Source: Kiritimatiellales bacterium (GTDB lineage: Bacteria; Verrucomicrobiota; Kiritimatiellia; Kiritimatiellales; Pontiellaceae). From it: a stretch of 12,745 bases of DNA. The position numbers and the translations under genes were made by a program. Shown here piece by piece: positions 1-12,745 of this stretch; position 1 is the stretch's first letter; every line of letters begins with the position of its first letter. The notes under the pieces are model-generated. The model worked only from the letters and a program-made list of their open reading frames with translations, was not told the origin of the DNA and searched no databases. The stretch covers positions 1-12,745 of the forward strand of contig WFRA01000146.1 in the NCBI GenBank assembly GCA_015486775.1. The letters are read 5' to 3'.

Positions 1-138
1 CTGCCCACCCTTTCCCGGCGTTACACCACCAACTACATTGCCGCCATATTCCAAACACTGGAGCGCATGGAAACTCCCCTCGGAGCCCGTGATCCCTTGC
101 ACAATAATTTTCGAATCCCTATCCACTAAAATCGCCAT
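1..138 (-). CDS. sucD: Succinyl-CoA synthetase alpha subunit, N-terminal 46 residues (cut by window edge)
   Basis: This is the start of the alpha subunit of succinyl-CoA ligase, which forms ATP or GTP from succinyl-CoA, or runs in reverse. The 46 visible residues start [18 protein letters not shown] and include [15 protein letters not shown] and [11 protein letters not shown]. These belong to the CoA-binding Rossmann domain; ITGSEG and GVTPGKGG are signature SucD stretches. The catalytic histidine lies beyond the window. The ATG at 138-136 is preceded on the minus strand by AAGGA about 10 bases upstream, which supports this start. It is the last visible gene of the minus-strand TCA cluster, 95 bases after the sucC stop. 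The reading frame is intact up to the window edge. Confidence 0.96.
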
Positions 139-156
139 AATCTAAATTCCTTTTTT

Positions 157-230
157 GAACCACTAATCTCTCAAGTCCCCACGAACCGACCCGGCCTAAA
201 ATTCGTTTCAGTTCGATCGATTCGTGGTTG
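157..230. repeat. Imperfect inverted repeat in the sucC-sucD spacer
   Basis: The spacer between sucC and sucD (139-233) has related 12-base arms at its two ends: gaaccactaatc at 157-168 and the reverse complement of caaccacgaatc at 219-230, matching at 10 of 12 positions. The transcript could form a long-range stem holding most of the spacer as a loop. The middle also contains several acgaa-like words. No strong promoter or U-tailed terminator is visible. The spacer is long for two genes whose products form one complex. Its function is unknown; it may be a decayed mobile repeat or an mRNA processing element. Confidence 0.45.
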
Positions 231-233
231 AAA

Positions 234-1409
<1,176 letters not shown>

Positions 1410-1454
1410 ATTCTGTTCCCTACGTGTTGGACGCGAGCTCCAAACCACCTATTG

Positions 1455-1751
1455 TTAATTTCCTGTTTCGTATTGAACCTGCTCTTCCGCAACCTTCAGG
1501 AGTTCCGGTTCATCCAGAGGGGTACTGATTTCATACAAAAAATCCGGTGACATATCGGCACCATTATCCCAAACAACCGTATCGATATCTGGATTCAAAC
1601 ACGCCGTGCCAAAACAAACCGTATCCTGCAACGGCTCAAACACTTCCCCCTCAAGATGCGATTGCAAATCGGCGAGACGCCACCCGCCATCTTCAAATTG
1701 CAAATGCAACTTGAAATCCGAGATATACTGAACATCTGTGATGTAGTGCAT
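1455..1751 (-). CDS. DUF2442 domain protein, small partner of the DUF4160 gene
   Basis: This 98-residue protein has features of DUF2442: an N-terminal stretch with YISDFKLHLQFEDGGWRLADL (roughly residues 9-29), then GEVFEPLQD, and a C-terminal half with DTVVWDNGADMSPDFLYE (57-74), close to the family's usual TVVWPNGADLAPD-type motif. The cellular role of the family is not established. DUF2442 genes often sit beside DUF4160 genes, and that pairing together with the small sizes has suggested a toxin-antitoxin-like module. This is inference and not proven. The ATG at 1751 follows AGGAA about 5 bases upstream and lies 5 bases after the stop of the DUF4160 frame, so the two were probably translated together. 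Local G+C in the lines I counted is about 42-45%, well below the flanking sucC and korB. Confidence 0.85.
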   Translation of the reverse strand: MHYITDVQYISDFKLHLQFEDGGWRLADLQSHLEGEVFEPLQDTVCFGTACLNPDIDTVVWDNGADMSPDFLYEISTPLDEPELLKVAEEQVQYETGN

Positions 1752-1756
1752 GGTTC

Positions 1757-2022
1757 CTATTCCTGATCAAGGGGGGAAATTGTCTTTAGTGGTTTTCTCT
1801 CCATCGCTAGTTGCCAATTCTTCAATAATTCATCCTGGTGCTTTGCCGCCCATTCCATGACAAGTGCCATAACCCGAGGAGGAAGCCTACTTCCAATACC
1901 CGCATTTCTTCAATCGCAAAAGAAGCCCGGCTACCGCCGTATTTTGCATGGAAATGAGGAACCCCATGCTCTTTCCAATAAATGGCTATCACGATCCCCA
2001 AGAATCGACTTATCTCCGGCAT
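1757..2022 (-). pseudogene. DUF4160 domain protein, interrupted by a one-base frameshift
   Basis: The first frame starts at 2022 with MPEISRFLGIVIAIYWKEHG and continues VPHFHAKYGG, the typical DUF4160 N-terminus with its PHFHA motif. After about 41 codons (near 1900) that frame leaves the family and would stop near 1822. Reading on in the frame that begins with ATT at 1897 restores the family's second half: SRLPPRVMALVMEWAAKH, then DELLKNWQLA and KPLKTISPLDQE, ending at TAG 1759-1757. Adding one base between about 1893 and 1902 gives a normal protein of about 88 residues. A GGG run here makes either a real deletion or a sequencing slip possible. AAGGAG lies 7 bases before the ATG. No function is proven for the family; with DUF2442 it forms a recurring two-gene cassette. 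Confidence 0.85.
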
Positions 2023-2050
2023 TCTGGACTCCTTGTCTACTCGATACGCA

Positions 2051-3613
2051 TTATTTCCCCTTTTTCTCCACCTGCTCCACGGTGTCGTGGATGAAGCGCA
2101 GGATCTGGCGGACGGTCACGAGGCCGAAGCCGCCGTCCTTCAGCTTGATCGGCACATGCCGGTGCCCGCTGATGGAGAGGATGTTGATCACATCGCCGAT
2201 GGAGTTGGTTTCGTCCATGATTTCATAGACCGGCCGCATGATCGCCGAGATGGGCTGGCGGTCGCGGTCGATGGAGGTGAGCACCACGTTCTGAATAATG
2301 TCGCGCTCGGAGAGGATGCCGTAGAGGCGCTTCTCGTCGCCGACGAGGATGCATTCGATGCGGTTGGCCGTGAAGTTGGCGATCGCCGTGGAAATGCTGT
2401 CGCGCGGGGAGAGCATCTTGACCCGCTTGTAGTCGTAGTCGTAGAAGATCTTCCCGATCGTGGTCTTGAGGCTCGCCGTGAGCGGGTCGGTGGACTTGAG
2501 CAGCTCGCGCACCTGCTCGTCCATGACCTTCGATTCCTCGGAGGAGGCCGCCCCGGTTCCGGCGGAACGCTGGAGCTTCTTCCCGCCATTGGAAACCTTC
2601 CAATATTCGGAACCGCGCAGTAGCGCCTGGAGGTTGCGCCGCCCCTTCAGTGCCGTGACCTCCTTGATCTGCGCCTCGAGCTCCTGCTCGTAGACCGGCC
2701 GCTTCTCGGCGCGGAAGATGCCGACGGGCACGGGGAATTCCGGATAGGTCATTTCCGAAAGCATGGTGGCGTAGACGGAGTCCTCGCGGAACATGTCGTG
2801 CTTGAGCAGATCCTTTTTGTTGATCCCCTGCTCGCCGAGGGTCACCACCTGGGGCGAGGTGCAGGTGGCATGGATGCCCTTGTTGTCCTGCTCGCCGAAG
2901 ACCAGCGGCTTACCCTGTTCGAGATAGATCAGGCGATCCTTGCGAGTGGCGCGGTCGGAGATATCCTTCCACCCGTCCTTGTTGAAGATCACGCAGCTTT
3001 GCAGGATCTCGACGAACGAGGTACCCGGATGCCGAGCCGCCGCCAGCAGCACCTCGGCGATGTGCTTGGGATCGGTGTCCACCGCGCGAGCCACGAACGA
3101 AGCCTCGGAGGCAAGCGCGACGCGCAGCGGGTTGAGCGGTTCGTCGATCACGCCGTAGGGGCTGGTCTTGGTGACCTTTCCGACCTCGGAAGTCGGGCTA
3201 TACTGCCCCTTAGTCAACCCGTAGATCTTGTTGTTGAGCAAGATGATGTTCATGTCGAGGTTGCGGCGCAGCGCATGCACCAGATGGTTGCCGCCGATGC
3301 TCAGCCCGTCGCCGTCGCCGGTGATCACCCAGACGGATAGCTCGGGGTTGGCCACCTTCACGCCGGTGGCGATGGTCGGCGCTCGACCATGGATCGAATG
3401 GAACCCGTAGGTGTCGAGATAGTACGGAAAGCGGCTGGAGCAGCCGATGCCGCTCACGAACACAAACTTTTCCTTGGGGATGCCCAGCTGCGGCAGCACG
3501 TTCTGCACGGCGTTGAGCACGGCGTAGTCGCCGCACCCGGGGCACCAGCGCACCTCCGACGACGAGACGAAATCCTTGCGGGTCAACTGTTCTTCTTTCT
3601 TTTTCATGATCAT
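2051..3613 (-). CDS. korB: 2-oxoacid (2-oxoglutarate):ferredoxin oxidoreductase beta subunit fused to a CBS-domain pair
   Basis: This is the thiamine-diphosphate-binding beta subunit of KOR, which with KorA oxidises 2-oxoglutarate and CoA to succinyl-CoA, CO2 and reduced ferredoxin, or does the reverse. Residues 22-28 hold RWCPGCG, and 99-109 the TPP/Mg motif GDGDGLSIGGN, followed by LLNNKIYGLTKGQ (125-137). Cys24, Cys27, Cys58 and Cys207 match the expected [4Fe-4S] ligands. The ordinary beta subunit would end near residue 340. Here a low-complexity linker (about 343-365) leads to two CBS domains (about 395-447 and 455-512), containing ILSERDII and GHRHVPI. The total of 520 residues is therefore much longer than the family norm. 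The start is MIM, so either 3613 or 3607 may be used. It lies 7 bases after korA. Pyruvate or another 2-oxoacid as substrate is not excluded, but neighbouring suc and sdh genes favour 2-oxoglutarate. Confidence 0.93.
   Translation of the reverse strand: MIMKKKEEQLTRKDFVSSSEVRWCPGCGDYAVLNAVQNVLPQLGIPKEKFVFVSGIGCSSRFPYYLDTYGFHSIHGRAPTIATGVKVANPELSVWVITGDGDGLSIGGNHLVHALRRNLDMNIILLNNKIYGLTKGQYSPTSEVGKVTKTSPYGVIDEPLNPLRVALASEASFVARAVDTDPKHIAEVLLAAARHPGTSFVEILQSCVIFNKDGWKDISDRATRKDRLIYLEQGKPLVFGEQDNKGIHATCTSPQVVTLGEQGINKKDLLKHDMFREDSVYATMLSEMTYPEFPVPVGIFRAEKRPVYEQELEAQIKEVTALKGRRNLQALLRGSEYWKVSNGGKKLQRSAGTGAASSEESKVMDEQVRELLKSTDPLTASLKTTIGKIFYDYDYKRVKMLSPRDSISTAIANFTANRIECILVGDEKRLYGILSERDIIQNVVLTSIDRDRQPISAIMRPVYEIMDETNSIGDVINILSISGHRHVPIKLKDGGFGLVTVRQILRFIHDTVEQVEKKGK
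2589..2603. repeat. Perfect 6-3-6 palindrome TTGGAA-ACC-TTCCAA inside korB
   Basis: TTGGAA at 2589-2594 and TTCCAA at 2598-2603 are exact reverse complements around ACC. The site lies in the coding region just after the beta core, near the linker to the CBS domains. It has the opposite arm order to the recurrent TTCCAA-N3-TTGGAA motif found elsewhere in the window and may or may not belong with it. Confidence 0.6.
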
Positions 3614-3620
3614 TCCCGTC

Positions 3621-5459
3621 CTAGAGATAGTGTTTGATTTCTTCCATCAGCTCGGCGATCAGGAACGCACGCCCCTGAACCTTGTTGACGGATTTTACAT
3701 CGACCAAATATTTTGCCCGTAGCACCATCGAAAGCTGACCGAGGTTGAGCTCCGGCACCACCACGTGGTCAAACTTCTTCATCACTTCGCCCAGGTTTTT
3801 GGGGAACGGGTTAAGGTGGCGCAGGTGGACTTGGCTCACGGGGAGTCCCTCGGCCTGCAGGCGCTCGACGGCCATGGTGATGGAGCCGTAGGTGCTGCCC
3901 CAACCCACTACGAGCACCTTGCCGGATTCTTCCCCTACCACCTTGCAAGGAGACAAGCTATCGGCGATCCGCTCGATCTTTTCCGCCCGCAAGCGACACA
4001 TCTTTTCGTGGTTTTCGGCATCATAGCTCACTTGGCCCAGCTCGGTCTTTTCGAGGCCGCCGATGCGGTGCTCGAACCCGGGGCGGCCGGGGATGGCCAG
4101 CCGCCGCGCCAGCGTCTTGGGGTCGCGCTTGTAGGGCACATATTCCTCGCCCGGTTTGATCGGCTCCACCGAGAGGTCGGGGATTTCGGTAACCGTCGGG
4201 ATCTTCCAAGGTTCGGAACCGTTGGCGAGATAGGTATCGGACAGCATGACGACCGGCGTGCGGTATTTCAGCGCAATCCGCGCCGCCTCGATGGCGGTCT
4301 CGAAACAGTCTGATGGTGAGTTGGCGGCCACCACGGCCACCGGCGATTCGCCGTTGCGGCCATAGAGCGTCTGGAGCAGGTCGGCCTGCTCGGTCTTGGT
4401 GGGTAGGCCGGTGCTCGGCCCCCCCCGCTGGACGTTCACCACCACCAGCGGTAGCTCGGTGATCACCGCCAGCCCCAGCGCCTCGGACTTCAAACAAAGC
4501 CCCGGGCCGCTGGTCGAGGTCACGCCAAGCGCGCCGGCAAAGGAGGCACCGATCGCCACGCCGATGGCAGCGATCTCGTCCTCGGCTTGGACGGTCTTGA
4601 CGTTGAAATTCCGATGTTTGGAAAGCGTTTCGAGAATCGGGGTAGCCGGGGTGATGGGGTAGCTGCCCAGCACCAAGTCGCGCCAGCTGTTTTCCGAAGC
4701 GGCGATCAGCCCGAGAGCCGTCGCCTCGTTGCCAGTGATCTTGCGGTAGGTACCGTCTTCAAGCGGGCGCTTCTGAACGGTGTAGTGCGGGATGTCGAGA
4801 TCCTTATTCTCGCCCACGATGTAGCCCGCCTTGAGCGCCAGCGCATTAGCGTCGGCGACAAGCGGAAGTTTTTCGCGCCACTTCGCCTCGATCCATTCAA
4901 GCGTCGCGTCCAGCGGCCGCGAATAGACCCAGTAGGTCATGCCCAGCGCAAAAAAGTTCTTGCTGCGCGACTTGAGCGCCGGCTTGATGGACACATCCTT
5001 GAGCGCCTCCGTCACCAGCGCGTTGATGTCCACTTTCAGGACATGGAACTTTTCGTCCAGTGCGGGATCTTCGAGCGGGTTGGTTTCGTACTGCGCCTTC
5101 TTGAGGTTGGCGGGGGTGAAGTTACCCGTGTTGATGACCAGCAACCCCTTGGGTTCGAGTTCATTGATGTTTACCTTGAGCGCGGCCGGATTCATCACCA
5201 CCAGCGCGTCGGCCTTGTCGCCGGGGGTCAGCACCTTGCGGCTGCCGATGTGTACCTGGAACCCGGAAACCCCCGGAAGCGAACCGACGGGCGCGCGGAT
5301 TTCCGAGGGGAAATCGGGGAAGGTCACAATCGAATCGCCCAGCAGGGCGCTGGCGTCGGAGAAGAGCTCCCCGACCGTCTGCATGCCGTCACCGGAGTCG
5401 CCGGCAAAGCGAACCACGACCGAATCTTTTTCCAGTAGCTTTTCCTGTTTCTTGCTCAT
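3621..5459 (-). CDS. korA: 2-oxoacid (2-oxoglutarate):ferredoxin oxidoreductase, fused gamma-alpha subunit
   Basis: This is the partner of KorB. Residues about 12-205 form the gamma domain, with VVVRFAGDSGDGMQTVG near the N-terminus and SEIRAPVGSLPGVSGFQVHIG at 52-72. Residues about 240-612 form the alpha part, with GNEATALGLIAA (243-254), the hallmark SYPITPATPILE (266-277), EDEIAAIGVAIGAS (293-306) and TSTSGPGLCLKSEALGLA (314-331). The length of 612 fits the two-subunit KOR type in which gamma and alpha are fused. I chose ATG 5459 and not the upstream in-frame ATG at 5489, because GGAG lies about 10 bases before 5459 and the longer form would overlap the preceding CBS gene. It starts 5 bases past that gene's stop and is followed by korB after 7 bases, so the three are clearly one transcript. 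The electron acceptor is expected to be ferredoxin. Confidence 0.95.
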   Translation of the reverse strand: MSKKQEKLLEKDSVVVRFAGDSGDGMQTVGELFSDASALLGDSIVTFPDFPSEIRAPVGSLPGVSGFQVHIGSRKVLTPGDKADALVVMNPAALKVNINELEPKGLLVINTGNFTPANLKKAQYETNPLEDPALDEKFHVLKVDINALVTEALKDVSIKPALKSRSKNFFALGMTYWVYSRPLDATLEWIEAKWREKLPLVADANALALKAGYIVGENKDLDIPHYTVQKRPLEDGTYRKITGNEATALGLIAASENSWRDLVLGSYPITPATPILETLSKHRNFNVKTVQAEDEIAAIGVAIGASFAGALGVTSTSGPGLCLKSEALGLAVITELPLVVVNVQRGGPSTGLPTKTEQADLLQTLYGRNGESPVAVVAANSPSDCFETAIEAARIALKYRTPVVMLSDTYLANGSEPWKIPTVTEIPDLSVEPIKPGEEYVPYKRDPKTLARRLAIPGRPGFEHRIGGLEKTELGQVSYDAENHEKMCRLRAEKIERIADSLSPCKVVGEESGKVLVVGWGSTYGSITMAVERLQAEGLPVSQVHLRHLNPFPKNLGEVMKKFDHVVVPELNLGQLSMVLRAKYLVDVKSVNKVQGRAFLIAELMEEIKHYL

Positions 5460-5463
5460 TGTT

Positions 5464-5937
5464 CTATTCTCCGGAAGGCCGCGATGCAACTAGGCTGCTA
5501 TCGGGGGGAAGGTTCATGACTTGAAGGGGAAGGTGCTCGCTGATGAAGGTCATCAGACCGCGGACGGAAAGGACGCCCTCGATCTTGCCGCCCTTCAGCA
5601 CCGGCAAATGGCGGAAGCGCGACGAGTCGAAAATCTCCAGCGCCTCCTGCACCGTCAGGCTGGTCTGGACGGAAGAGGGGTTCCGGGTCATGATTTCGTC
5701 CACCGGCGTGTCGCCCGTCAGCGTGGTGCCCACAAAATTATGCATCAGATCGCCGTTGCTCATGATGCCGACGAGTTTTTTCTTTGCGTCGAGCACCAGT
5801 ACGCAGCCGATATGGTTATTTTTCATCTCCCGCACCGCATTGATGATCGATGTGCCGGACGGAACGATGGCTGGTGTCTGCAAATCGACCTTGCCGATCG
5901 GCTCCGACCAGAATGTAGCCTTCTTTCGTTTTGTCAT
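5464..5937 (-). CDS. Free-standing CBS-domain pair protein upstream of korA
   Basis: This soluble 157-residue protein is almost entirely two CBS domains: about residues 13-70 (AIVPSGTSIINAVREM, IGCVLVLDAKKKLVGIMSNGDL) and 80-135 (VDEIMTRNP, LTVQEALEIF, RFRHLPVLKGGKIEGVLSVRGL). CBS pairs typically bind AMP, ADP, ATP, SAM or similar ligands and act as regulatory modules. No catalytic, DNA-binding or membrane domain is present. The tail LPPDSSLVASRPSGE resembles tails seen on other stand-alone bacterial CBS proteins. The ATG at 5937 follows AAGGA with a run of C in between. The gene is separated from korA by only 4 bases, and KorB itself carries a second CBS pair, so regulation of the 2-oxoacid oxidoreductase is the natural inference. 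The ligand is unknown. Confidence 0.92.
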   Translation of the reverse strand: MTKRKKATFWSEPIGKVDLQTPAIVPSGTSIINAVREMKNNHIGCVLVLDAKKKLVGIMSNGDLMHNFVGTTLTGDTPVDEIMTRNPSSVQTSLTVQEALEIFDSSRFRHLPVLKGGKIEGVLSVRGLMTFISEHLPLQVMNLPPDSSLVASRPSGE

Positions 5938-5950
5938 GGGGGGGTCCTTG

Positions 5951-6046
5951 TTCGTATTAGGTACTGCGTATTACGTATTGCGTATTGCGCATTGGGGAAA
6001 CGTCCAACCAGAACCGGACAGGCCATTACGTAGTACGCGATACGAA
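5951..6046. repeat. Imperfect inverted repeat in the sdhB-CBS spacer
   Basis: Arms at 5951-5970 and 6027-6046 are reverse complements at 16 of 20 positions, enclosing a 56-base loop. They occupy most of the 116-base spacer between sdhB and the CBS gene. In RNA they would form a long stem between the sdh and kor parts of the transcript. The outer strand of the left arm is part of the heptad array described separately. There is no U-tract next to the right arm in the minus direction that would make this a clear terminator, so an mRNA stabilising or processing structure, or a decayed mobile repeat, is possible. Confidence 0.6.
5952..5993 (-). repeat. Six-unit 7-bp tandem repeat before the CBS gene
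   Basis: Read on the minus strand, 5993 to 5952 divides without remainder into six heptamers. Four units match AATACGN exactly and the others are close variants (AATGCGC and AGTACCT). The next seven bases are ACAAGGA, which holds the ribosome binding site of the CBS gene. The array therefore abuts the translation start region. Similar 7-base spaced words occur in opposite orientation at 6027-6046. I do not recognise a named repeat family. Confidence 0.7.
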
Positions 6047-6053
6047 TTAATCC

Positions 6054-6809
6054 TTAACTCATTAAACTCGCTTTGATAAATTCGCGATTGAGGCGGGCAA
6101 TATTTTTGACATCGATCCCTTTGGGGCAGGCGACGGCGCATTCGTACTCGTTCGAGCAACTGCCGAAGCCCAGCTCGTCCATCTTATTGACCATGTCCAG
6201 TGCCCGGCGCGTCCGCTCGGGGTGGCCCTGCGGCAGGAGGGCGTATTGGGAAACCTTGGCCGAAACAAACAGCATCGCCGCCCCGTTCGGGCAGGCCGCC
6301 ACGCAGGCACCGCAACCAATGCACTCGGCGGCATCCATCGCCGCCTCGGCCAGCTCCTTCTGGATCGGGGTGGTCGAGGCCTCCGGCGCGTTGCCGGTCT
6401 TCACCTCCACATAACCGCCCTCGCGGATGATGGCGTCGAGGCCGCTGCGGTCGACGATCAAATCCTTGATGATCGTGAAGGGCTTGGCGCGGAAGGGTTC
6501 GATCACGATCTGGTCGTTGTTCTTAAACTTGCGCATGTGCAGTTGGCAGAGCGTGGTACGCTCGTGCGAGCCGTGGGTCTTGCCGTTCACCACCGCGCCA
6601 CAGCAGCCACAAATGCCCTCGCGGCAATCGTGTTCGAACGCGATCGGCTCGATCCCGCTGAGCGTCAGCCCCTCGTTCACAATATCGAGCATTTCGAGGA
6701 ACGAGGCATCGGTGTCGATATCCGCCGCCTGGTAGGTTTCGAACCGCCCAGTTTTCTCGCCCTGCGCCTGCCGCCAGACCTTGAGTGTCACATTGATTTT
6801 TTCTGCCAT
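6054..6809 (-). CDS. sdhB: Succinate dehydrogenase / fumarate reductase iron-sulfur subunit
   Basis: SdhB passes electrons between the flavin of SdhA and the membrane quinone site. The 251-residue protein has an N-terminal plant-type ferredoxin domain with the [2Fe-2S] ligands Cys62, Cys67, Cys70 and Cys88 (in HDCREGICGCCG and LCQLH). The C-terminal domain carries CIGCGACVAACP (Cys163, 166, 169, 173) and a third cluster region CSNEYECAVACPKG (Cys218, 224, 228). Both match the Bacteroidetes/Bacillus-type SdhB. I chose ATG 6809 because it follows GAAGGAAGGGATC, a strong ribosome binding site; an upstream ATG at 6845 would add 12 residues encoded by spacer repeats. It lies 49 bases after sdhA. 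The next gene in the same direction begins 116 bases on. Confidence 0.97.
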   Translation of the reverse strand: MAEKINVTLKVWRQAQGEKTGRFETYQAADIDTDASFLEMLDIVNEGLTLSGIEPIAFEHDCREGICGCCGAVVNGKTHGSHERTTLCQLHMRKFKNNDQIVIEPFRAKPFTIIKDLIVDRSGLDAIIREGGYVEVKTGNAPEASTTPIQKELAEAAMDAAECIGCGACVAACPNGAAMLFVSAKVSQYALLPQGHPERTRRALDMVNKMDELGFGSCSNEYECAVACPKGIDVKNIARLNREFIKASLMS

Positions 6810-6815
6810 GATCCC

Positions 6816-6857
6816 TTCCTTCGAAATTCTACATTCCCTGTTCAATATTCGACATTC
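6816..6857 (-). repeat. Six-unit 7-bp tandem array filling the sdhA-sdhB spacer
   Basis: Read on the minus strand from 6857 to 6816, the spacer divides exactly into six heptamers, every one starting with GAA; four start GAAT (for example GAATGTC at 6857-6851 and GAATGTA at 6836-6830). The last unit, GAAGGAA, is part of the sdhB ribosome binding site. The array begins one base after the sdhA stop codon, so it fills the spacer up to the start signals of sdhB. The layout is the same as that of the array before the CBS gene, with a different base sequence. Confidence 0.65.
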
Positions 6858-6858
6858 T

Positions 6859-8772
6859 CTACTTGTACGACCTCTGGCTTAGTTTCACTTCTTCAAACAC
6901 CAGTTCTTCTTTATGGAGCACCGGCTCTTTTTCCAATCCCTGAAACTCCCAAGCGGCGACGTAGGCAAACTCGTCGTCGTTGCGTAGCGCCTCGCCCTCG
7001 TCGGTCTGGCTTTCCACCCGGAAGTGGCCACCGCAGGACTCGGCGCGGTTGAGCGCATCACGCACCAGCAACTCGGCAAACTCCATAAAGTCGGCCACGC
7101 GGTTGGCTTTTTCCAAGGCCTGGTTCAAATCCTCAGCGGAGCCGGGCACGTTGACGTTTTTCCAGAACTCCTCGCGTAGCTTGGGAATTTTTTCGAGCGC
7201 TTCCCGGAGCCCTTCCTCCGTCCGCGCCATGCCGCAGTTTTCCCACAGTAGCTTGCCCAGCTCGCGGTGGAAGTCGTCGACGGTGCGCGAGCCTTTCACG
7301 GCCAGCAATTTATCCAGCTTGTCCTGCGCGGTCTTCTCGGCCTCGGCAAAGGCGGCGTGGTCGGTTCCAACGGTTGGAATTTCGGCGGAGGCGAGATAGT
7401 CGTTGATGGTGTTGGGTAGGACAAAGTAGCCGTCGGCCAGCCCCTGCATCAGCGCGCTCGCACCAAGGCGGTTGGCGCCGTGGTCGGAAAAGTTGCACTC
7501 GCCGATGGCGTAGAGGCCGGGCAGCGAGGTCATCAGGTTGTAGTCCACCCAGAGGCCGCCCATGGCATAGTGGATGGCGGGATAGATCTTCATCGGCACG
7601 GTGTAGGGATCTTCGTCCATGATGCGCTCGTACATTTCGAACAAGTTGCCATACTTGGCCTCGATGTTGTCGCGCCCGAGGCGTTCGATCGCCTCGGCAA
7701 AGTCGAGGTAGACGGCGTTGCCGGTGGAGCCGACGCCCCGGCCTTCGTCGCAGACCATCTTGGCGTTGCGCGAGGCAAGGTCGCGCGGAACAAGGTTTCC
7801 AAAGCTTGGATATTTGCGCTCCAGATAATAGTCGCGCTCATCCTCGGGGATGTCGTTGGCGGGGCGGGTGTCGCCCTTTTTCTTCGGCACCCAGATGCGG
7901 CCATCGTTGCGGAGGCTTTCGGACATGAGCGAGAGTTTGGACTGGTATTCGCCGTGCATCGGGATGCAGGTGGGGTGGATCTGGGTGTAGCAGGGGTTGG
8001 CGAAAGCGGCACCTTTTTTATACGCCCGCCACGCCGCGCTGGCATTGCAGTTCATGGCGTTGGTGGAGAGATAGTAGACATTGCCGTAGCCGCCGGTGGC
8101 CAGCACGACCGCGTCGGCCTCGTGGCGGGTCAGCTCGCCGGTCACCAGATTGCGCGAAATGATGCCGCGCGCCTGGCCGTCGATCACGACGATGTCGACC
8201 ACCTCGGAGCGGGTGTGCATGGTAACGCCGCCCTTCTTGATCTCTTTGGAGAGTGCGCCGTAGGCACCCAAGAGCAGCTGCTGGCCGGTCTGCCCGCGGG
8301 CGTAGAAGGTGCGCGAAACCTGCGCACCGCCAAACGAGCGGTTGGCGAGGTAGCCGCCATATTCCCGGGCGAACGGGACACCTTGGGCGACGCAGTGGTC
8401 GATGATCTGGTTGCTCACCTCGGCGAGGCGATAGACGTTGGCTTCGCGCGAGCGGAAGTCGCCGCCCTTGACGGTGTCGTAGAAGAGGCGATAGACCGAG
8501 TCGCCGTCGTGGGGATAGTTTTTTGCGGCGTTGATGCCGCCCTGCGCGGCGATCGAGTGGGCGCGGCGCGGGCTGTCGGAATAGGTGAACGCATCCACCA
8601 CGTAGCCCAGCTCCGCCATCGTCGCGGCGGCGGACGCCCCCGCTAGGCCGGTGCCCACCACAATCACGGTATGCTTGCGCTTGTTGGAGGGGTTGACGAG
8701 CTTCACCTTGAATTTGTGGTTCGTCCATTTTTCGGCCATCGGGCCGTCGGGGATTTTGGAGTCAAGTTTCAT
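6859..8772 (-). CDS. sdhA: Succinate dehydrogenase / fumarate reductase flavoprotein subunit
   Basis: SdhA is the catalytic subunit that interconverts succinate and fumarate using covalently bound FAD. The 637-residue protein has the dinucleotide-binding motif VVGTGLAG (38-45), and [12 protein letters not shown] (71-82), where His72 is the expected FAD attachment residue. It also has the active-site arginine region VPRDLASR (328-335), [10 protein letters not shown] (401-410), [18 protein letters not shown] (424-441), and a C-terminal helical domain with [10 protein letters not shown] (578-587). Length and motifs fit the Bacteroidetes-type flavoprotein. ATG 8772 follows GAGGA about 7 bases upstream and lies 10 bases after sdhC. 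Sequence alone does not tell whether the enzyme mainly oxidises succinate or reduces fumarate. The complex faces the cytoplasm and is anchored by SdhC. Confidence 0.97.
7365..7379. repeat. Perfect TTCCAA-CGG-TTGGAA palindrome inside sdhA
   Basis: TTCCAA at 7365-7370 and TTGGAA at 7374-7379 are exact reverse complements around CGG, in the C-terminal half of sdhA. It is one of two perfect copies of the recurrent motif in this window. Being inside a coding region, it is unlikely to be a simple operator. Confidence 0.8.
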
Positions 8773-8782
8773 GGGGAATCCT

Positions 8783-9454
8783 CTAGTAGTAGAAATAGAT
8801 CAGGGCCGAGATCGGAATGATGGCGAACGTGGAGGCCATGGCGATGGCGACAAACTTGCTGAGAAGCTTGATCTTGCTACCCTCGCGCGGAATGTAGAGA
8901 CCATAGGTCTGCAAGGCGCTTTGCAGCGCGTGGCTAAGATGAAACCCAACCGCTACCATGAACAGAAGATAGAAAAGTACGTTTCCGGGATTTTGGAAAT
9001 AGGCATAGACCATGCCGTAGACATCGTCGACCATGTGACCGTTAAGCTCCACCTGCATCTTATCCACGCCGAGGGTGAAGTCGAACAGGTGCTTGGCGAT
9101 GAAGATAAAGATCATCGCGCCTGTCCAGGGCATCAGCCGGGCGGCCAGCGAGCGTTCGGGCGTGGACTTGAGGCTTTCCCGCTTGCCCGCCGACAGATAG
9201 TTTGCCACGGCGATGCGGATCCCCGTGTTCATGTGGGCGATGATCGACACGAGCATCAGCACCTCGATTCCCACCACAACCGGAACCAGCTTGTGCAGGT
9301 GCGCGGCATAGGAGTTGAAGAGATCCGGCCCGAAGAGGAACAGGATGTTCCCCAGCATGTGCGGGATCAGGAAGAGAAGAAACATGATCAACCCGGTGGT
9401 GGCCAGCAACACCTTCTGGCCAATTGAGGAGAGAACCGTTTGCATAATATTCAT
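8783..9454 (-). CDS. sdhC: Succinate dehydrogenase cytochrome b558 membrane anchor (five helices, dihaem type)
   Basis: SdhC anchors SdhAB in the cytoplasmic membrane and carries electrons through haem b to or from menaquinone. The 223-residue protein shows five hydrophobic segments, at about residues 13-40, 55-80, 108-130, 150-182 and 200-221. Histidines at the expected haem-ligand positions are His32, His74, His122 and His172 (or His175). The segments [17 protein letters not shown] and [10 protein letters not shown] are typical of the Bacteroidetes/Bacillus-type single anchor, so no separate sdhD is needed and none is present. I chose ATG 9454 because AAGGAAG lies 8 bases upstream; the in-frame ATG at 9553 would add 33 residues with no membrane or family character. 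This is the first gene of the minus-strand cluster. Confidence 0.95.
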
Positions 9455-9630
9455 GGCGAAACTTCCTTTTTCATACCCTTCCCAATGCTCGGAGGACAGC
9501 CCGCGCCCCGTACAGGCCGCCGCGACAGACTCTGCCCCATATTCATTAAACAAACGTAATGTTCCGAAATGGTTTCAGCAAGCTACTTGTTCCCTTTTTT
9601 CGCACCTATCCCTAAACCGATGCGAAGGAG

Positions 9631-9654
9631 CGGGTTTCCAGACCTTGGAACCCG
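9631..9654 (+). repeat. Stable hairpin in the sdhC-metY intergenic region
   Basis: cgggtttcca at 9631-9640 pairs with ttggaacccg at 9645-9654, leaving one bulged T and a short loop. A T-rich stretch (attttatttt) follows about 8 bases later on the plus strand. It overlaps a near-perfect copy (11 of 12) of the TTCCAA-N3-TTGGAA motif at 9636-9650. If a plus-strand transcript started upstream, the hairpin could act as a weak terminator or attenuator. It is more likely a copy of the recurrent palindrome with extended arms. Confidence 0.55.
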
Positions 9655-9757
9655 GAACCCATTTTATTTTGTGCTCGCGCCTGCTTCATGGTTTAATGCA
9701 AAGACAAATCCGGGAACAGCCCCGCCGGACGGGATATAAAAATGCTAAAAAAGCCGC

Positions 9758-9785
9758 TTGACCAATTTACTTAATACACTACCAT
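9758..9785 (+). promoter_or_regulatory. Candidate sigma-70-type promoter for metYX
   Basis: TTGACC at 9758-9763 matches the -35 consensus at five of six positions. After a 16-base spacer, TACCAT at 9780-9785 matches the -10 consensus at four of six, including the key first, second and last positions. Transcription would start near 9792, giving a leader of about 50 bases ending in the metY ribosome binding site. The surrounding sequence is A/T-rich. This is a consensus match by eye only. Confidence 0.4.
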
Positions 9786-9840
9786 ATTCCTCATGTTTAG
9801 AAACCAAGACCTGCCCACCAAACAAAAAGGAACTCTCCCC

Positions 9841-11121
9841 ATGAGCAAACTCGAAACCCAATGCCTGCACGCTGGCTACGAAACTGCCGATCCCACCACC
9901 CACGCGCATGCCGTGCCACTCTACCGTACCGCAGCTTACCGCTTCGACAACGCCGAGCACGCTGCAAACCTCTTTGCGCTCAAGGAGCTCGGCAACATAT
10001 ACACCCGCCTGATGAACCCCACCACCGACGTGCTGGAGCAGCGGCTCGCGGCGCTCGAAGGCGGAGCGGCCGGGCTCGCCGTCGCCTCGGGCACCAGCGC
10101 CATCTTCTACTCCATCATCAACCTGGCGAAGTCGGGCGACGAGATCGTGGCGGCTAACAACCTCTATGGCGGAAGCTACACTCAGTTCAACGACATTCTT
10201 CCAAGCCTTGGAATCACCGTAAAGTTTGTCGACCCCACCGATCCGCAAAACTTTGCCGCCGCCATCACCGAAAAGACCAAGGCGCTCTATTGCGAAACTG
10301 TCGGCAATCCCCTGCTCGACCTCGTCGACATCCAGTCCATCGCCGACATTGCGCACGCCAACGGGTTGCCGCTGATCGTCGACAACACCTTCGCAACCCC
10401 CGCGCTCTGCCGCCCGCTCGAACACGGCGCGGACATCGTCGTCCACTCGCTCACCAAATGGCTCGGCGGGCACGGTACCGCCATCGGCGGCGTGGTGGTC
10501 GACTCCGGAAAATTTGACTGGACCACCGGCAAGCACCCGCAGCTCTCCGACCCCGACCCCAGCTACCACGACATCAGCTATGCCAACGATCTCGGCGACC
10601 TCGCCCCCCTCGCCTACATCCTGCGCATGCGTCTCGTTCCCCTGCGCAACCTCGGTGCCTGCATCGCCCCGGACAACGCTTGGATGGCCTTGCAAGGCAT
10701 CGAAACCCTGCCGCTGCGCATGGAGCGCCACTCCGAAAACGGACTCGCCGTCGCCAAGCACCTGAAGGCCCACGACCAAGTTGAATGGGTGCGCCACCCC
10801 GCGCTCGAGGGCGACCCCTCCTTCGACCTTGCGCAAAAATATCTGCCCAACGGCGCGGGCGGCATGGTCGTCTTCGGCATCAAGGGCGGACAGGAAGCCG
10901 GCAAGAAATTTATCGAGGCGCTCAAGCTCTTCGCGCACCTCGCCAACGTGGGCGACGCCCGCAGCCTGGCCATCCACCCCGCTTCCACCACCCACTCGCA
11001 GCTCACCGAAGAGCAGCAGGCCGCTAGCCGGATCTCCCCGGATCTGGTTCGCCTCTCGGTTGGGCTTGAACACATCGACGATATCCTGTCAGATATCGAC
11101 CAAGCCTTGGCCTCTCTTTAG
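9841..11121 (+). CDS. metY: O-acetylhomoserine aminocarboxypropyltransferase (O-acetylhomoserine sulfhydrylase)
   Basis: This PLP-dependent enzyme makes homocysteine (or methionine) from O-acetylhomoserine and sulfide (or methanethiol). The 426-residue protein is the usual MetY length. It opens with LETQCLHAGYE and PLYRTAAYRF, typical of the Cys/Met-metabolism PLP family. It shows YTRLMNPTTDVLEQRLAALEGG (54-75), ASGTSAIFY (82-90) for the cofactor phosphate, VDNTFATP (180-187) with the PLP-binding Asp, and the Schiff-base Lys206 in VHSLTKWLGGHG. The long insert after SGKFDW (222-227) and the segment SLAIHPASTTHSQL (375-388) are typical of MetY and not of MetB. I chose ATG 9841 because AAGGA lies upstream and the protein starts at the family position; an ATG at 9793 lacks that support. 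It is followed by metX after 29 bases, which makes its substrate. Confidence 0.96.
   Translation: MSKLETQCLHAGYETADPTTHAHAVPLYRTAAYRFDNAEHAANLFALKELGNIYTRLMNPTTDVLEQRLAALEGGAAGLAVASGTSAIFYSIINLAKSGDEIVAANNLYGGSYTQFNDILPSLGITVKFVDPTDPQNFAAAITEKTKALYCETVGNPLLDLVDIQSIADIAHANGLPLIVDNTFATPALCRPLEHGADIVVHSLTKWLGGHGTAIGGVVVDSGKFDWTTGKHPQLSDPDPSYHDISYANDLGDLAPLAYILRMRLVPLRNLGACIAPDNAWMALQGIETLPLRMERHSENGLAVAKHLKAHDQVEWVRHPALEGDPSFDLAQKYLPNGAGGMVVFGIKGGQEAGKKFIEALKLFAHLANVGDARSLAIHPASTTHSQLTEEQQAASRISPDLVRLSVGLEHIDDILSDIDQALASL
10199..10213. repeat. Perfect TTCCAA-GCC-TTGGAA palindrome inside metY
   Basis: TTCCAA at 10199-10204 and TTGGAA at 10208-10213 are exact reverse complements around GCC, in coding sequence near codons 120-124 (PSLGI). 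It is the second perfect copy of the recurrent motif in the window. Confidence 0.8.
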
Positions 11122-11131
11122 CCTGGGCAAG

Positions 11132-11146
11132 TTCCAACCTTGGGAA
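11132..11146. repeat. Near-perfect copy of the TTCCAA-N3-TTGGAA motif in the metY-metX spacer
   Basis: TTCCAA at 11132-11137, CCT, then TGGGAA at 11141-11146 matches the motif at 11 of 12 fixed positions. It ends four bases before the metX start codon, where the ribosome binding site would be expected. The metX start therefore lacks a clear classical ribosome binding site apart from the GGGA inside this repeat. Confidence 0.6.
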
Positions 11147-11150
11147 AACG

Positions 11151-12281
11151 ATGGAAAACACACAGACCCGGTTCTTCACCTACGACAAGCTAAAGCTGCA
11201 CGACGGGCGGGACTTCGGTCCCGTCACGCTCGCCTACGAAACCTACGGCGAACTGAACGAGGCGAAAGACAACGCCATCCTGGTCTTCCACGCCCTGTCG
11301 GGTTCCCAGCATGTCTACGGCTTCAATCCCGAAGTTCCAGGGGTTGGAAAACGCTGGAACGAAGAGTGCCAGACCGGTTGGTGGGAGGGCTTTGTCGGCC
11401 CCGGCAAAACCATCGACACCGACCGCTTCTTCGTGGTCTGCGCCAACTATCTCGGCGGCTGCTACGGCACCACCGGCCCCTCCTCCATCAACCCGGCAAC
11501 CGGAAAGGAATGGGGCGGCGACTTCCCGCACATCGCCTTTGGCGACATTGTCGACTCGCAGCTTCCGCTCTTCGCCGAGCTCGGGATCGAGACCTTCCAC
11601 GCCGCCATCGGCTCCTCCCTCGGCGGCATGCTACTGATGAACTTTGCCGCGCGCTATCCCCAAAAGGTCCGCCGCGTCATTCCCGTCGCCTGCGGGCTGG
11701 AATCCACCACCCTCACGCGCGTGCACAACCTCGAGCAGATCCTCGCCATCGAAAACGACCCCAACTTCTGCAACGGCCACTACTACGACGGCCCCGCCCC
11801 CCTGCGCGGCCTCGCCCTCGCCCGCATGGTCTCGCATAAGACCTTCGTCTCGCTGCGCGCCATGGAGGAGCGCATGACCGACCGGTGCGAACAGGAGCAG
11901 GACGAATTTTCGTGGTACAAAATCAAGACCCCGCTCGAATCCTACATCCTCCACCAGGGGCGCAAATTCGTGCGGCGGTTCGATGCCAACTCCTACCTCT
12001 ACCTCGTCGCCGGATGGACCCACTTCAATTTGGCCCGCGACCTCGGCACCGCCGACTACAACGAGGTGTTCAAGGATTGCAAACACCAGGACTACCTCGT
12101 CTTCAGCATCGACTCCGACTGCTGCTTCTATCCCGACGAGCAGGAGCACCTCCGCAGCAAACTGGTCGAGGCAGGGATCAAAACCGAATTCGTCACCGTC
12201 CACTCCGACAAGGGGCACGACTCCTTCCTGCTCGAACCCGAACTCTACGCCGAACCCATCCGCCGCATGCTCGAAAAATAG
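11151..12281 (+). CDS. metX: Homoserine O-acetyltransferase (MetX family, alpha/beta hydrolase fold)
   Basis: MetX activates homoserine by transferring an acetyl group from acetyl-CoA, giving the substrate of the upstream metY product. The 376-residue protein is the normal family length and starts MENTQTRFFTYDKLKLHDGR. Family motifs are LVFHALSGSQH (44-54), GPGKTIDTDRFFVVCANYLGGCYGTTGP (split around residues 83-110) and the nucleophile elbow GSSLGGM (154-160) with Ser156. The probable catalytic Asp323 lies in SIDSDCCFYP and His356 in SDKGHDSFLL. The elbow reads GSSLGG where many family members have GGSMGG. Some MetX homologues use succinyl-CoA instead, and I cannot settle that from sequence alone; pairing with metY favours acetyl. 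The ribosome binding site is weak, so coupling to metY translation is plausible. A convergent tRNA terminator begins at its stop codon. Confidence 0.95.
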   Translation: MENTQTRFFTYDKLKLHDGRDFGPVTLAYETYGELNEAKDNAILVFHALSGSQHVYGFNPEVPGVGKRWNEECQTGWWEGFVGPGKTIDTDRFFVVCANYLGGCYGTTGPSSINPATGKEWGGDFPHIAFGDIVDSQLPLFAELGIETFHAAIGSSLGGMLLMNFAARYPQKVRRVIPVACGLESTTLTRVHNLEQILAIENDPNFCNGHYYDGPAPLRGLALARMVSHKTFVSLRAMEERMTDRCEQEQDEFSWYKIKTPLESYILHQGRKFVRRFDANSYLYLVAGWTHFNLARDLGTADYNEVFKDCKHQDYLVFSIDSDCCFYPDEQEHLRSKLVEAGIKTEFVTVHSDKGHDSFLLEPELYAEPIRRMLEK

Positions 12282-12306
12282 GGCTCCGCGCCGAAGTGCG
12301 GAGCCC
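12281..12306 (-). terminator. Intrinsic terminator of tRNA-Gly, sharing a base with the metX stop codon
   Basis: GGGCTCCGC at 12281-12289 pairs perfectly with GCGGAGCCC at 12298-12306, with an 8-base loop holding a TTCG element when read on the minus strand. On the minus strand the hairpin is followed by TATTTTT (from aaaaata at 12274-12280, inside metX), a proper U-tract. On the plus strand no T-run follows. It therefore terminates the tRNA transcript, and its U-tract is encoded inside the last codons of metX. It may also stabilise the metX mRNA 3' end. Confidence 0.85.
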
Positions 12307-12314
12307 GGAAAAAG

Positions 12315-12389
<75 letters not shown>

Positions 12390-12529
12390 CCAAAGAACAA
12401 GGAAAGGTGTACACAAAGGCACCTGGGTTTGCCAGAAAAAAATGACCGAACGATCCGCCCGCCCCGCAATCTTGTGCCGATTGCGCATGGTACTGTTTTT
12501 CTTTCTTACTTGGGTAGCACAATGGAACG

Positions 12530-12555
12530 TTGGAGACCTCAGTAGGCTCTTCCAA
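12530..12555 (+). terminator. Possible terminator hairpin between the right-edge gene and tRNA-Gly
   Basis: TTGGAGACCT at 12530-12539 can pair with AGGCTCTTCCAA at 12544-12555 through stems of 5, 2 and 3 pairs with two single-base bulges. On the plus strand it is followed by tttctacttttt, so it resembles a plus-strand terminator. On the minus strand it begins three bases after the stop codon of the small right-edge gene but lacks a U-tract there. It could serve either side; the outer arms again read TTGGA and TTCCAA. Confidence 0.35.
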
Positions 12556-12558
12556 TTT

Positions 12559-12745
12559 CTACTTTTTGGGATTGTTGCGGGCGTTCTTTTTTTTGCCTTC
12601 ATCCCTAGCGTGGACTTTGTTGCGCTCGGCGGGAGCGAGGCGCCAGATTTTTTCCCTGCCCTTTTTCCGTTTGGCGGCGAGGCGTTCGGTCGAGTGCTTG
12701 GATTGCACGCGGCCGGAATAGTTCATGGTCTGCTCGCTGTGGAAG
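12559..12745 (-). CDS. Small Lys/Arg-rich hypothetical protein or C-terminus of a larger one (cut by window edge)
   Basis: An open frame on the minus strand ends with TAG at 12561-12559 and stays open to the window edge. From the ATG at 12726 it encodes 55 residues beginning MNYSGRVQSKHSTERLAAKR and ending KNARNNPKK. It is very rich in Lys and Arg, with about one third basic residues, lacks cysteine, and has no membrane segment. Before the ATG the frame reads FHSEQT, so this may be the tail of a longer protein. The ATG has only a weak GAG-type ribosome binding site. I do not recognise a family. A nucleic-acid-binding tail, as in ribosome-associated or histone-like proteins, is possible from composition only. 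Confidence 0.5.
   Translation of the reverse strand, partial: FHSEQTMNYSGRVQSKHSTERLAAKRKKGREKIWRLAPAERNKVHARDEGKKKNARNNPKK

Follow-up and report, generated by a model that had tools for sequence, protein, structure and literature searches.

Why should one interrupted palindrome, TTCCAA-N3-TTGGAA, recur both within and between the genes of a single stretch of bacterial DNA? The window, by which we mean the whole stretch analysed, comprises positions 1–12,745 of WFRA01000146.1, forward strand, from a Kiritimatiellales bacterium MAG (assembly GCA_015486775.1, Pontiellaceae). Allowing one mismatch at most, it contains nine copies where 0.01 would be expected, and none of 200 dinucleotide shuffles of the window gave as many. 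A scan of TTCC-N-GGAA over spacers 0–15 gave nine occurrences at spacer 7 and 0–2 at each other spacer, and eight of the nine copies have G or C as their centre base. We suggest, at a probability of roughly 0.6 and on the strength of sequence comparisons, that the refined motif, TTCCARNSNYTGGAA, is a selected site of a putative oligomeric, sequence-specific DNA-binding protein that acts chromosome-wide in part of the Kiritimatiellia.

A palindrome of fixed geometry

The eight direct copies listed in a sequence-only reading of the window were all recovered at their places. That reading had also described a copy of opposite arm order at 2589–2603; the letters are there, but they form the junction of two adjacent copies, a degenerate one with two mismatches on the left (2580–2594, TTCCCGCCATTGGAA) and on the right a further one-mismatch copy that had been overlooked (2598–2612, TTCCAATATTCGGAA), with 18 bp from centre to centre. 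This pair lies in the gene for a 2-oxoacid:ferredoxin oxidoreductase beta subunit (2051–3613, minus strand). Two one-mismatch copies (4204–4218 and 4609–4623) are hosted by the gene for a 2-oxoacid:acceptor oxidoreductase alpha subunit (3621–5459, minus strand), and the sdhA/frdA gene for the succinate dehydrogenase/fumarate reductase flavoprotein (6859–8772, minus strand) carries a perfect copy at 7365–7379 and a one-mismatch copy at 7797–7811. The gene for O-acetylhomoserine sulfhydrylase (9793–11121, plus strand) contains the second perfect copy (10199–10213), and one-mismatch copies are found in the divergent gap between it and sdhC (9636–9650), in the 29-bp gap between it and metX (11132–11146), and within metX itself (11335–11349), which encodes homoserine O-acetyltransferase (11151–12281, plus strand).

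The excess extends to the whole genome. The window's genome (G000, 2.52 Mb) has 270 perfect copies, compared with 2 of the reversed pattern and 2 for the eleven spacers 4–14 summed. The per-genome counts of 20 site-rich genomes sum to 10,164 for perfect copies with spacer 3, as against 139 for the eleven spacers 4–14 combined. Taken with the window shuffles, the reversed-pattern and other-spacer counts rule out chance or base composition as the source of the copies. The claim that arms and spacing are kept is borne out, spacer 3 alone being used, but the central bases are not free as had been supposed: 334 of 344 perfect copies from four data sets have G or C at the centre, which rules out a free spacer. 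The copies share these 15 bp and one or two T/A flank positions, and nothing longer. One-mismatch forms are abundant, and in-gene copies occupy all reading frames.

A survey of 387 genomes of the phylum, 131 in the window's class and 256 in other classes, showed how patchy the distribution is. Within the class, 36 genomes have at least 14 copies (maximum 1,339) and 95 have 0–7, and site-rich and site-poor relatives coexist in one genus; genomes of the other classes have at most five copies each. The view of the sequence-only reading that this is a genome-wide iterated palindrome and not a plain operator is thus upheld by the number of copies, their presence in all frames, the single spacer, the many one-mismatch forms and the patchiness among relatives. 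Our literature search did not find a published description of this motif. A phage origin was rejected, as paired arrays occur in only 4 contigs (5 stretches) of a 2.9-million collection of viral contigs.

Gene context and fate among relatives

In the samples from G000, G081 and the Pontiellaceae, most copies are in genes. The same had been said of the window, where it holds for seven of the nine copies that have one mismatch or none, but per kb the copies are denser between genes: each class of intergenic gap has 1.4 to 27 times the density of coding sequence, the top value coming from loci chosen for arrays. Perfect copies are also relatively commoner in gaps, with 57 perfect and 21 one-mismatch copies in Pontiellaceae gaps and 71 and 101, respectively, in genes. 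These observations, together with the conservation of some site pairs in the same gap across two or three species and the reported spacing of Lrp-family sites by two or three turns of the helix (PMC2995911), would suit a global transcription regulator controlling very many genes, for which the sites would be operators and the in-gene copies tolerated or regulatory decoys. Against it stand the number of in-gene copies and the phased in-gene pairs of G081 described below. Furthermore, the gap classes show no promoter preference in any of the four data sets; density is higher in convergent than in divergent gaps in all four, although numbers are small (8, 3, 10 and 6 convergent copies). This absence of promoter preference speaks against a promoter operator in the narrow sense, which we rejected. 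On inspection by eye, most genes adjoining arrays are housekeeping genes unrelated to one another, with no evident common function. We therefore regard the regulator as unlikely.

Among aligned relatives of the window (loci with L numbers), the fate of individual copies varies. The right-hand copy of the pair, at 2598–2612, has two or three mismatches in its four aligned relatives. The copy at 4204–4218 is identical in L017, with two mismatches in L020 and L016 and four in L029, and that at 4609–4623 has one mismatch in L020 and L017 and is lost in L016 and L029. The perfect copy at 7365–7379 remains perfect in L020, L017, L019 and L029 and has one mismatch in L016 and L023; it is lost in L018, L021, L031 and L024, all from site-poor genomes, and also in L022, from a site-rich one. 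The copy at 7797–7811 is kept in L020, L022, L017 and L029 and lost in L016, L019 and L023, so that some window copies disappear in site-rich relatives as well. For the four copies from 9636 onward no relative was aligned.

For the window region alone, a cluster bootstrap left zero within the interval for site-rich and site-poor targets alike. The retention test was therefore based on 160 source sites, the pairs from the single region being dependent. Loci L196–L215 had been picked for holding site pairs, and the seven conserved pairs used to pick L196–L202 were left out while other nearby copies stayed in; G392 (25 copies, 9 per Mb) was classed as site-poor, and rows with gaps were set aside (49 of 326 for site-rich and 5 of 56 for site-poor targets). 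In site-rich targets arm identity was 0.870 against 0.760 in the flanks (difference 0.086 to 0.136), whereas in site-poor targets it was 0.704 against 0.755 (difference -0.090 to -0.008), these intervals being somewhat narrow because orthologous sites were counted from both sides. Gain and loss at aligned sites, which the sequence-only reading had proposed to examine, follow the same division, with 154 of 277 copies kept in site-rich relatives and 0 of 51 in site-poor ones.

Alignment gaps are commoner at sites (30/260) than at control positions (116/2,428), and this excess, along with the dispersed copies and the arrays, might be expected of a small mobile palindromic element of the REP or MITE kind. 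However, the site itself is ungapped in 230 of the 260 aligned pairs of site and ortholog, indicating that most gains and losses are substitutions, and what the copies have in common ends at the 15 bp and their one or two flank positions, making such an element highly improbable.

Helical register and half-sites

Neighbouring copies lie at preferred distances. In G081 the 41 neighbour pairs 18–90 bp apart fall at 22, 30–33, 39–42, 52–53, 63 and 83 bp, giving R = 0.883 at a period of 10.5 bp, a value equalled by none of 20,000 uniform draws; the 19 pairs within one called gene give R = 0.92. All 13 pairs of G245 are at 32 bp, and in other families of the class the copies form intergenic arrays with steps of mostly 31–32 bp. 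The dominant spacings, 22 and 31–32 bp, correspond to two or three helical turns. The register is weaker in the Pontiellaceae (R = 0.474), and the window's genus has half-turn distances of 17 and 28 bp besides whole turns; the sample from the window's own genome yields just nine distances of 120 bp or less between neighbours, of which three are 31 bp.

This register bears on two alternative accounts. By analogy with the HIP1 words of cyanobacteria, a methyltransferase and biased mismatch repair could generate the word and keep renewing it in the absence of selection for a function. The patchy distribution, the in-gene copies in all frames and the abundant one-mismatch forms fit such a by-product, and cyanobacterial HIPs are reported to be tied to methyltransferases (PMC4390886). 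It does not, however, predict a helical register between copies, and of the two methylase families examined, C5 methylases (PF00145) are absent from 15 of the 36 site-rich genomes, including those with 1,132 and 853 copies, and N4/N6 methylases (PF01555) from 13, including one with 595 copies. Neither family, then, discriminates site-rich genomes, and we consider the by-product quite unlikely. Alternatively, competent cells might favour DNA bearing the word, which would accumulate by transfer as a DNA uptake sequence. Copies that are genome-wide, in and between genes, and retained among relatives agree with this, but helical register is not expected of uptake words, and we know of no uptake word that is a gapped perfect palindrome; uptake is accordingly very unlikely.

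The two halves of the site vary almost independently of each other, as would be expected for a dimer and unlike an RNA hairpin. In the Pontiellaceae, AG/AG was seen 10 times (12.5 expected) and AA/AG 93 times (89.4 expected), and in G081 plus G029, AG/AG was seen 5 times (7.6 expected). The least probable of the alternatives is an RNA hairpin or terminator element: the word could fold back on itself, its flanks tend to be T or A, and one compensated class is in excess in G081 plus G029 (GA/GA, 7 against 3.8 expected), but the uncompensated class GA/GG is in excess there too (8 against 4.1), and neither in-gene copies in all frames nor pairs in DNA helical register would be expected of it.

A word scattered hundreds of times, often at whole-turn spacing, suggests a protein that reads the chromosome. 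In the model that we favour, a putative dimer would contact one half-site in each of two successive major grooves, and adjoining dimers would touch wherever the site centres are separated by two, three, four or more whole turns. Selection would maintain sites along the whole chromosome, in coding sequence and gaps alike, and where the protein was lost or changed the sites would decay. We infer a protein reader, its oligomerisation and an architectural role from these patterns; as sites are kept chromosome-wide, in genes and gaps, a nucleoid-organising factor is most likely, and not a switch bound to the operators of a few genes. A bolder version, which we offer tentatively and at somewhat less than even odds, is a helically phased address code in site-rich Kiritimatiellia, where an abundant putative protein would polymerise on or wrap DNA along hundreds of near-perfect sites and coding sequences would be bent to keep pairs in register, a sequence-specific, chromatin-like system gained and lost within a genus.

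Candidate readers and known systems

Searches among the Lrp, LysR, LacI and ParB families and the two methylase families did not find a reader. Lrp/AsnC was favoured at first for its two- or three-turn spacing but was rejected, being conserved in site-poor genomes too: it is present, in single copy, in 36 of 36 site-rich and 31 of 37 site-poor genomes, and its N-terminal region is alike in 29 of 30 aligned loci (the G074 locus encodes a different protein). From 400 bp upstream to 600 bp downstream of the start codon, neither perfect nor one-mismatch copies occur in the 30 Lrp loci; a two-mismatch copy is present in four of them, at -363, at -155 and, in two loci, at +506. LysR is missing from 13 of the 36 site-rich genomes, including those with 1,339 and 853 copies, and LacI from four (G032, G321, G065 and G245). 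An extra ParB-like protein (ParB_N) was also dismissed, since 34 of the 36 site-rich genomes and all 20 of the site-poor ones examined have at least one, mostly just one. When 960 called proteins of G081 and G029 were screened with a regular expression, 14 weak candidates emerged.

Several known systems resemble this one in part. The sites of Noc, SlmA, MatP and KorB are likewise palindromes spread across a replicon and recognised by a protein that organises a chromosome or plasmid, but they are far fewer per replicon and are not known to show helical register. NrdR boxes differ from the present motif in sequence. They are 16 bp long, not 15, lie at ribonucleotide reductase genes, and occur as pairs of short palindromes reported to be bound together by an oligomer in a helix-phase-dependent manner (PMC12051234). 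Operators of the Ss-LrpB type are described as short, clustered palindromes bound by dimers, with centres two or three turns apart (PMC2995911). The copies here share the two- or three-turn spacing of Lrp/AsnC operators, but Lrp sites are reported to be degenerate (PMC2995911), whereas these are near-perfect, number up to 1,339 and occur in genes too.

The likeness to HIP1 proposed in the sequence-only reading holds for some features and fails for others. HIP1 occurs in genes and gaps. So does the present motif, which shares with HIP1 and alternate HIPs the genome-wide excess, the presence in all frames, the one-mismatch forms and the patchiness; HIPs are described as cyanobacterial palindromes over-represented genome-wide, with one-mismatch forms, and low or absent in some relatives (PMC4390886). 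Unlike HIP1 (GCGATCGC), it is a gapped 15-bp word of 12 fixed bases and a G/C centre, found in a different phylum, with copies that stand in helical register, are denser between genes and form intergenic arrays. Methyltransferases are a reported correlate of HIP1 (PMC4390886); for the motif here no link was found with the two methylase families examined, neither of which is universal in site-rich genomes. The function of HIP1 had itself not been settled by 2015, when a paper still offered a model (PMC4390886).

The motif thus adds a second, unrelated iterated palindrome, one with a built-in mechanistic signature in its helical register. Kiritimatiellia are little-studied bacteria, and to our knowledge the chromosome biology of the class is hardly known. 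With site-rich and site-poor relatives in one genus, the question of why genomes fill with one word becomes directly testable, and a reader that proved to be a nucleoid protein would organise the chromosome in a sequence-specific manner through unusually many sites.

An iterated palindrome with a fixed spacer

The window is contig C146 of the Kiritimatiellales MAG G000 (2.52 Mb in 439 contigs, 72% complete), and in a search with SdhA its closest named relatives were Kiritimatiellales MAGs and Pontiellaceae bacteria. Family models gave names to an ordinary set of its genes: succinyl-CoA ligase beta, the beta and alpha subunits of 2-oxoacid:ferredoxin oxidoreductase, SdhB, SdhA, SdhC, O-acetylhomoserine sulfhydrylase, and MetX. 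The window holds nine copies of the gapped palindrome (arms TTCCAA and TTGGAA, spacer 3) with at most one mismatch, compared with 0.01 expected, and none of 200 shuffles reached nine. The sequence-only reading had placed all of its copies correctly, but had overlooked one at 2598, and the copy of reversed arm order that it reported, while present, is the junction between two adjacent copies. Most copies are inside genes, as it had stated (seven of nine). The genome-wide count that it called for gave 270 perfect copies in G000 versus 2 of the reversed pattern, with 2 copies at spacers 4–14 summed. Across 20 site-rich genomes, meaning those of the class Kiritimatiellia with many perfect copies, these other spacers gave 139 copies versus 10,164 at spacer 3, in agreement with its view that the spacing is conserved. 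For G081, a single-contig genome of the class sampled mostly every 100 kb (820 kb), spacer 3 gave 112 copies, spacer 25 gave four, and any other spacer from 0 to 24 gave at most one.

A G or C occupies the centre of 128/134 perfect copies from Pontiellaceae loci, 26/26 from G000, 109/112 from G081, and 71/72 from other families. Among single changes, A to G at position 6 is the most frequent (61/127 in Pontiellaceae and 57/127 in G081), and T is favoured at position -1, leading to the refined motif TTCCARNSNYTGGAA. Variants of the left and right half-sites combine close to independently, a pattern more in keeping with a dimer bound to DNA than with an RNA hairpin; the classes exceeding expectation in G081 plus G029 were GA/GA (7 vs 3.8 expected) and GA/GG (8 vs 4.1).

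A survey of 387 genomes from the phylum included 131 from the window's class, of which 36 carry at least 14 copies, 28 carry one to seven, and 67 carry none; the maximum among the 256 outside the class was five. Inside the window's genus, copy numbers range from 1 to 1,177, the highest being those of the congeners G159 and G227. The listed pairs of another genome, G245, are predominantly of a GC-richer form (R at position 6 often G, spacer rich in G/C), so its perfect-copy count of 14 is too low for its true sites.

Genomic placement and helical register

Copies per kb in four data sets were 0.19–0.50 in coding sequence, 0.69–5.22 in codirectional gaps, 0.82–3.02 in divergent gaps, and 1.74–3.52 in convergent gaps, values that are approximate because genes were called with a simple codon-usage script and gaps of <15 or >600 bp were left out. 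Convergent gaps, where few promoters are expected, are not poorer in copies than divergent gaps, on counts of just 8, 3, 10, and 6 copies. Perfect and one-mismatch copies in Pontiellaceae number 57 and 21 in gaps, 71 and 101 in genes, and 6 and 5 at gene edges, and the match to the motif seems to be eroded in genes by coding need. Genes adjacent to arrays are, by eye, mostly housekeeping genes unrelated to one another. Along G081 contig C1, 11 consecutive sampled stretches at 100–1,120 kb (L136–L146) hold 10 perfect copies and the remaining 30 hold 102; a run of 11 equally low arose in 53 of 20,000 shuffles of the stretches, and the block is confined to one side of the GC-skew minimum.

Intergenic arrays outside the window's family contain three to seven copies separated by unrelated DNA, in steps of mostly 31–32 bp, also 22 and 30, and once 16; these loci were chosen after the clusters were seen and serve as illustration only. 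In the G081 sample, the 41 neighbour distances of 18–90 bp fall at 22, 30–33, 39–42, 52–53, 63, and 83 bp, giving a periodicity strength R of 0.883 at 10.5 bp, and R was 0.92 for the 19 pairs lying within a single called gene. All 13 G245 pairs are spaced 32 bp. In the window's genus, the 75 listed of 93 counted perfect pairs lie mainly at 17, 22, 28, and 31–33 bp with none at 34–41 bp, indicating that half-turn distances are present in this genus, where R was 0.474 for the sampled loci. Neighbour distances up to 120 bp in the G000 sample (n = 9) were 17, 21, 31 (three times), 54, 67, 109, and 111 bp. A 32-bp pair at about 9,940–10,030 of L201/L202, within a gene named by eye as terpene-cyclase-like, is common to two Pontiellaceae species although coding.

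Retention and loss among relatives

Gain and loss at aligned sites, the comparison of relatives that the sequence-only reading had suggested, were followed for 160 source sites, a site with no more than one mismatch counting as kept. At a density of 15 or more copies per Mb, targets kept 154/277 sites (identity 0.870 in arms, 0.760 in flanks), whereas those below this cut-off kept 0/51 (arms 0.704, flanks 0.755). For the window region, at comparable overall divergence, the figures were 31/63 versus 0/39, with an interval that includes zero when this region alone is put through a stricter cluster bootstrap (24 clusters). Since 230/260 aligned pairs have no gap inside the site, sites change mainly via substitution; gaps are nevertheless more frequent at sites (30/260) than at control positions (116/2,428).

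A few paired copies remain in the site-poor genomes G038, G059, G267, and G294 (L252, L253, L255, L257, and L259), at most about 1 kb from PIN, SMODS-like, type I restriction (HSDR_N), AbiEii, and HARE-HTH genes. Of the seven neighbouring ORFs tested, five match such families (SMODS under the cut-off) and two gave no match; it is as if the pairs had come with defence islands from site-rich donors.

A putative protein reading the motif

None of the candidate families tracks the sites. Lrp/AsnC is present in 36/36 site-rich and 31/37 site-poor genomes (at least one member in 67/73, with one or two in most class genomes examined), LysR in 23/36 and 18/34, LacI in 32/36 and 15/20, and ParB in 34/36 and 20/20. 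C5 methylases (21/36 and 18/34) and N4/N6 methylases (23/36 and 25/34) likewise do not track them. The Lrp/AsnC N-terminal regions are similar in 29 of 30 aligned loci (L221–L250 except L234), where the protein has a constant length of 159 aa.

A methylation-driven model like that for the HIP1 palindrome of cyanobacteria (PMC4390886) does not, on our reading, predict a register between copies. Lrp-family dimers are reported to lie two or three whole turns apart (PMC2995911), and NrdR box pairs to depend on helix phase (PMC12051234); the likeness of these systems to the motif is an analogy of mechanism, not membership. Searches for iterated palindromes in Kiritimatiell-, the 15-mer forms, both half-sites, and motif or repeat descriptions found no published account of the motif in open-licence full texts among the matches listed, as judged by title and abstract. 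We favour reading by a protein because the site is exactly two-fold, the spacing is in whole turns, retention and loss resemble selection, and the copies are indifferent to promoters. What unites these observations best is a putative oligomeric, sequence-specific DNA-binding protein that would work along the chromosome.
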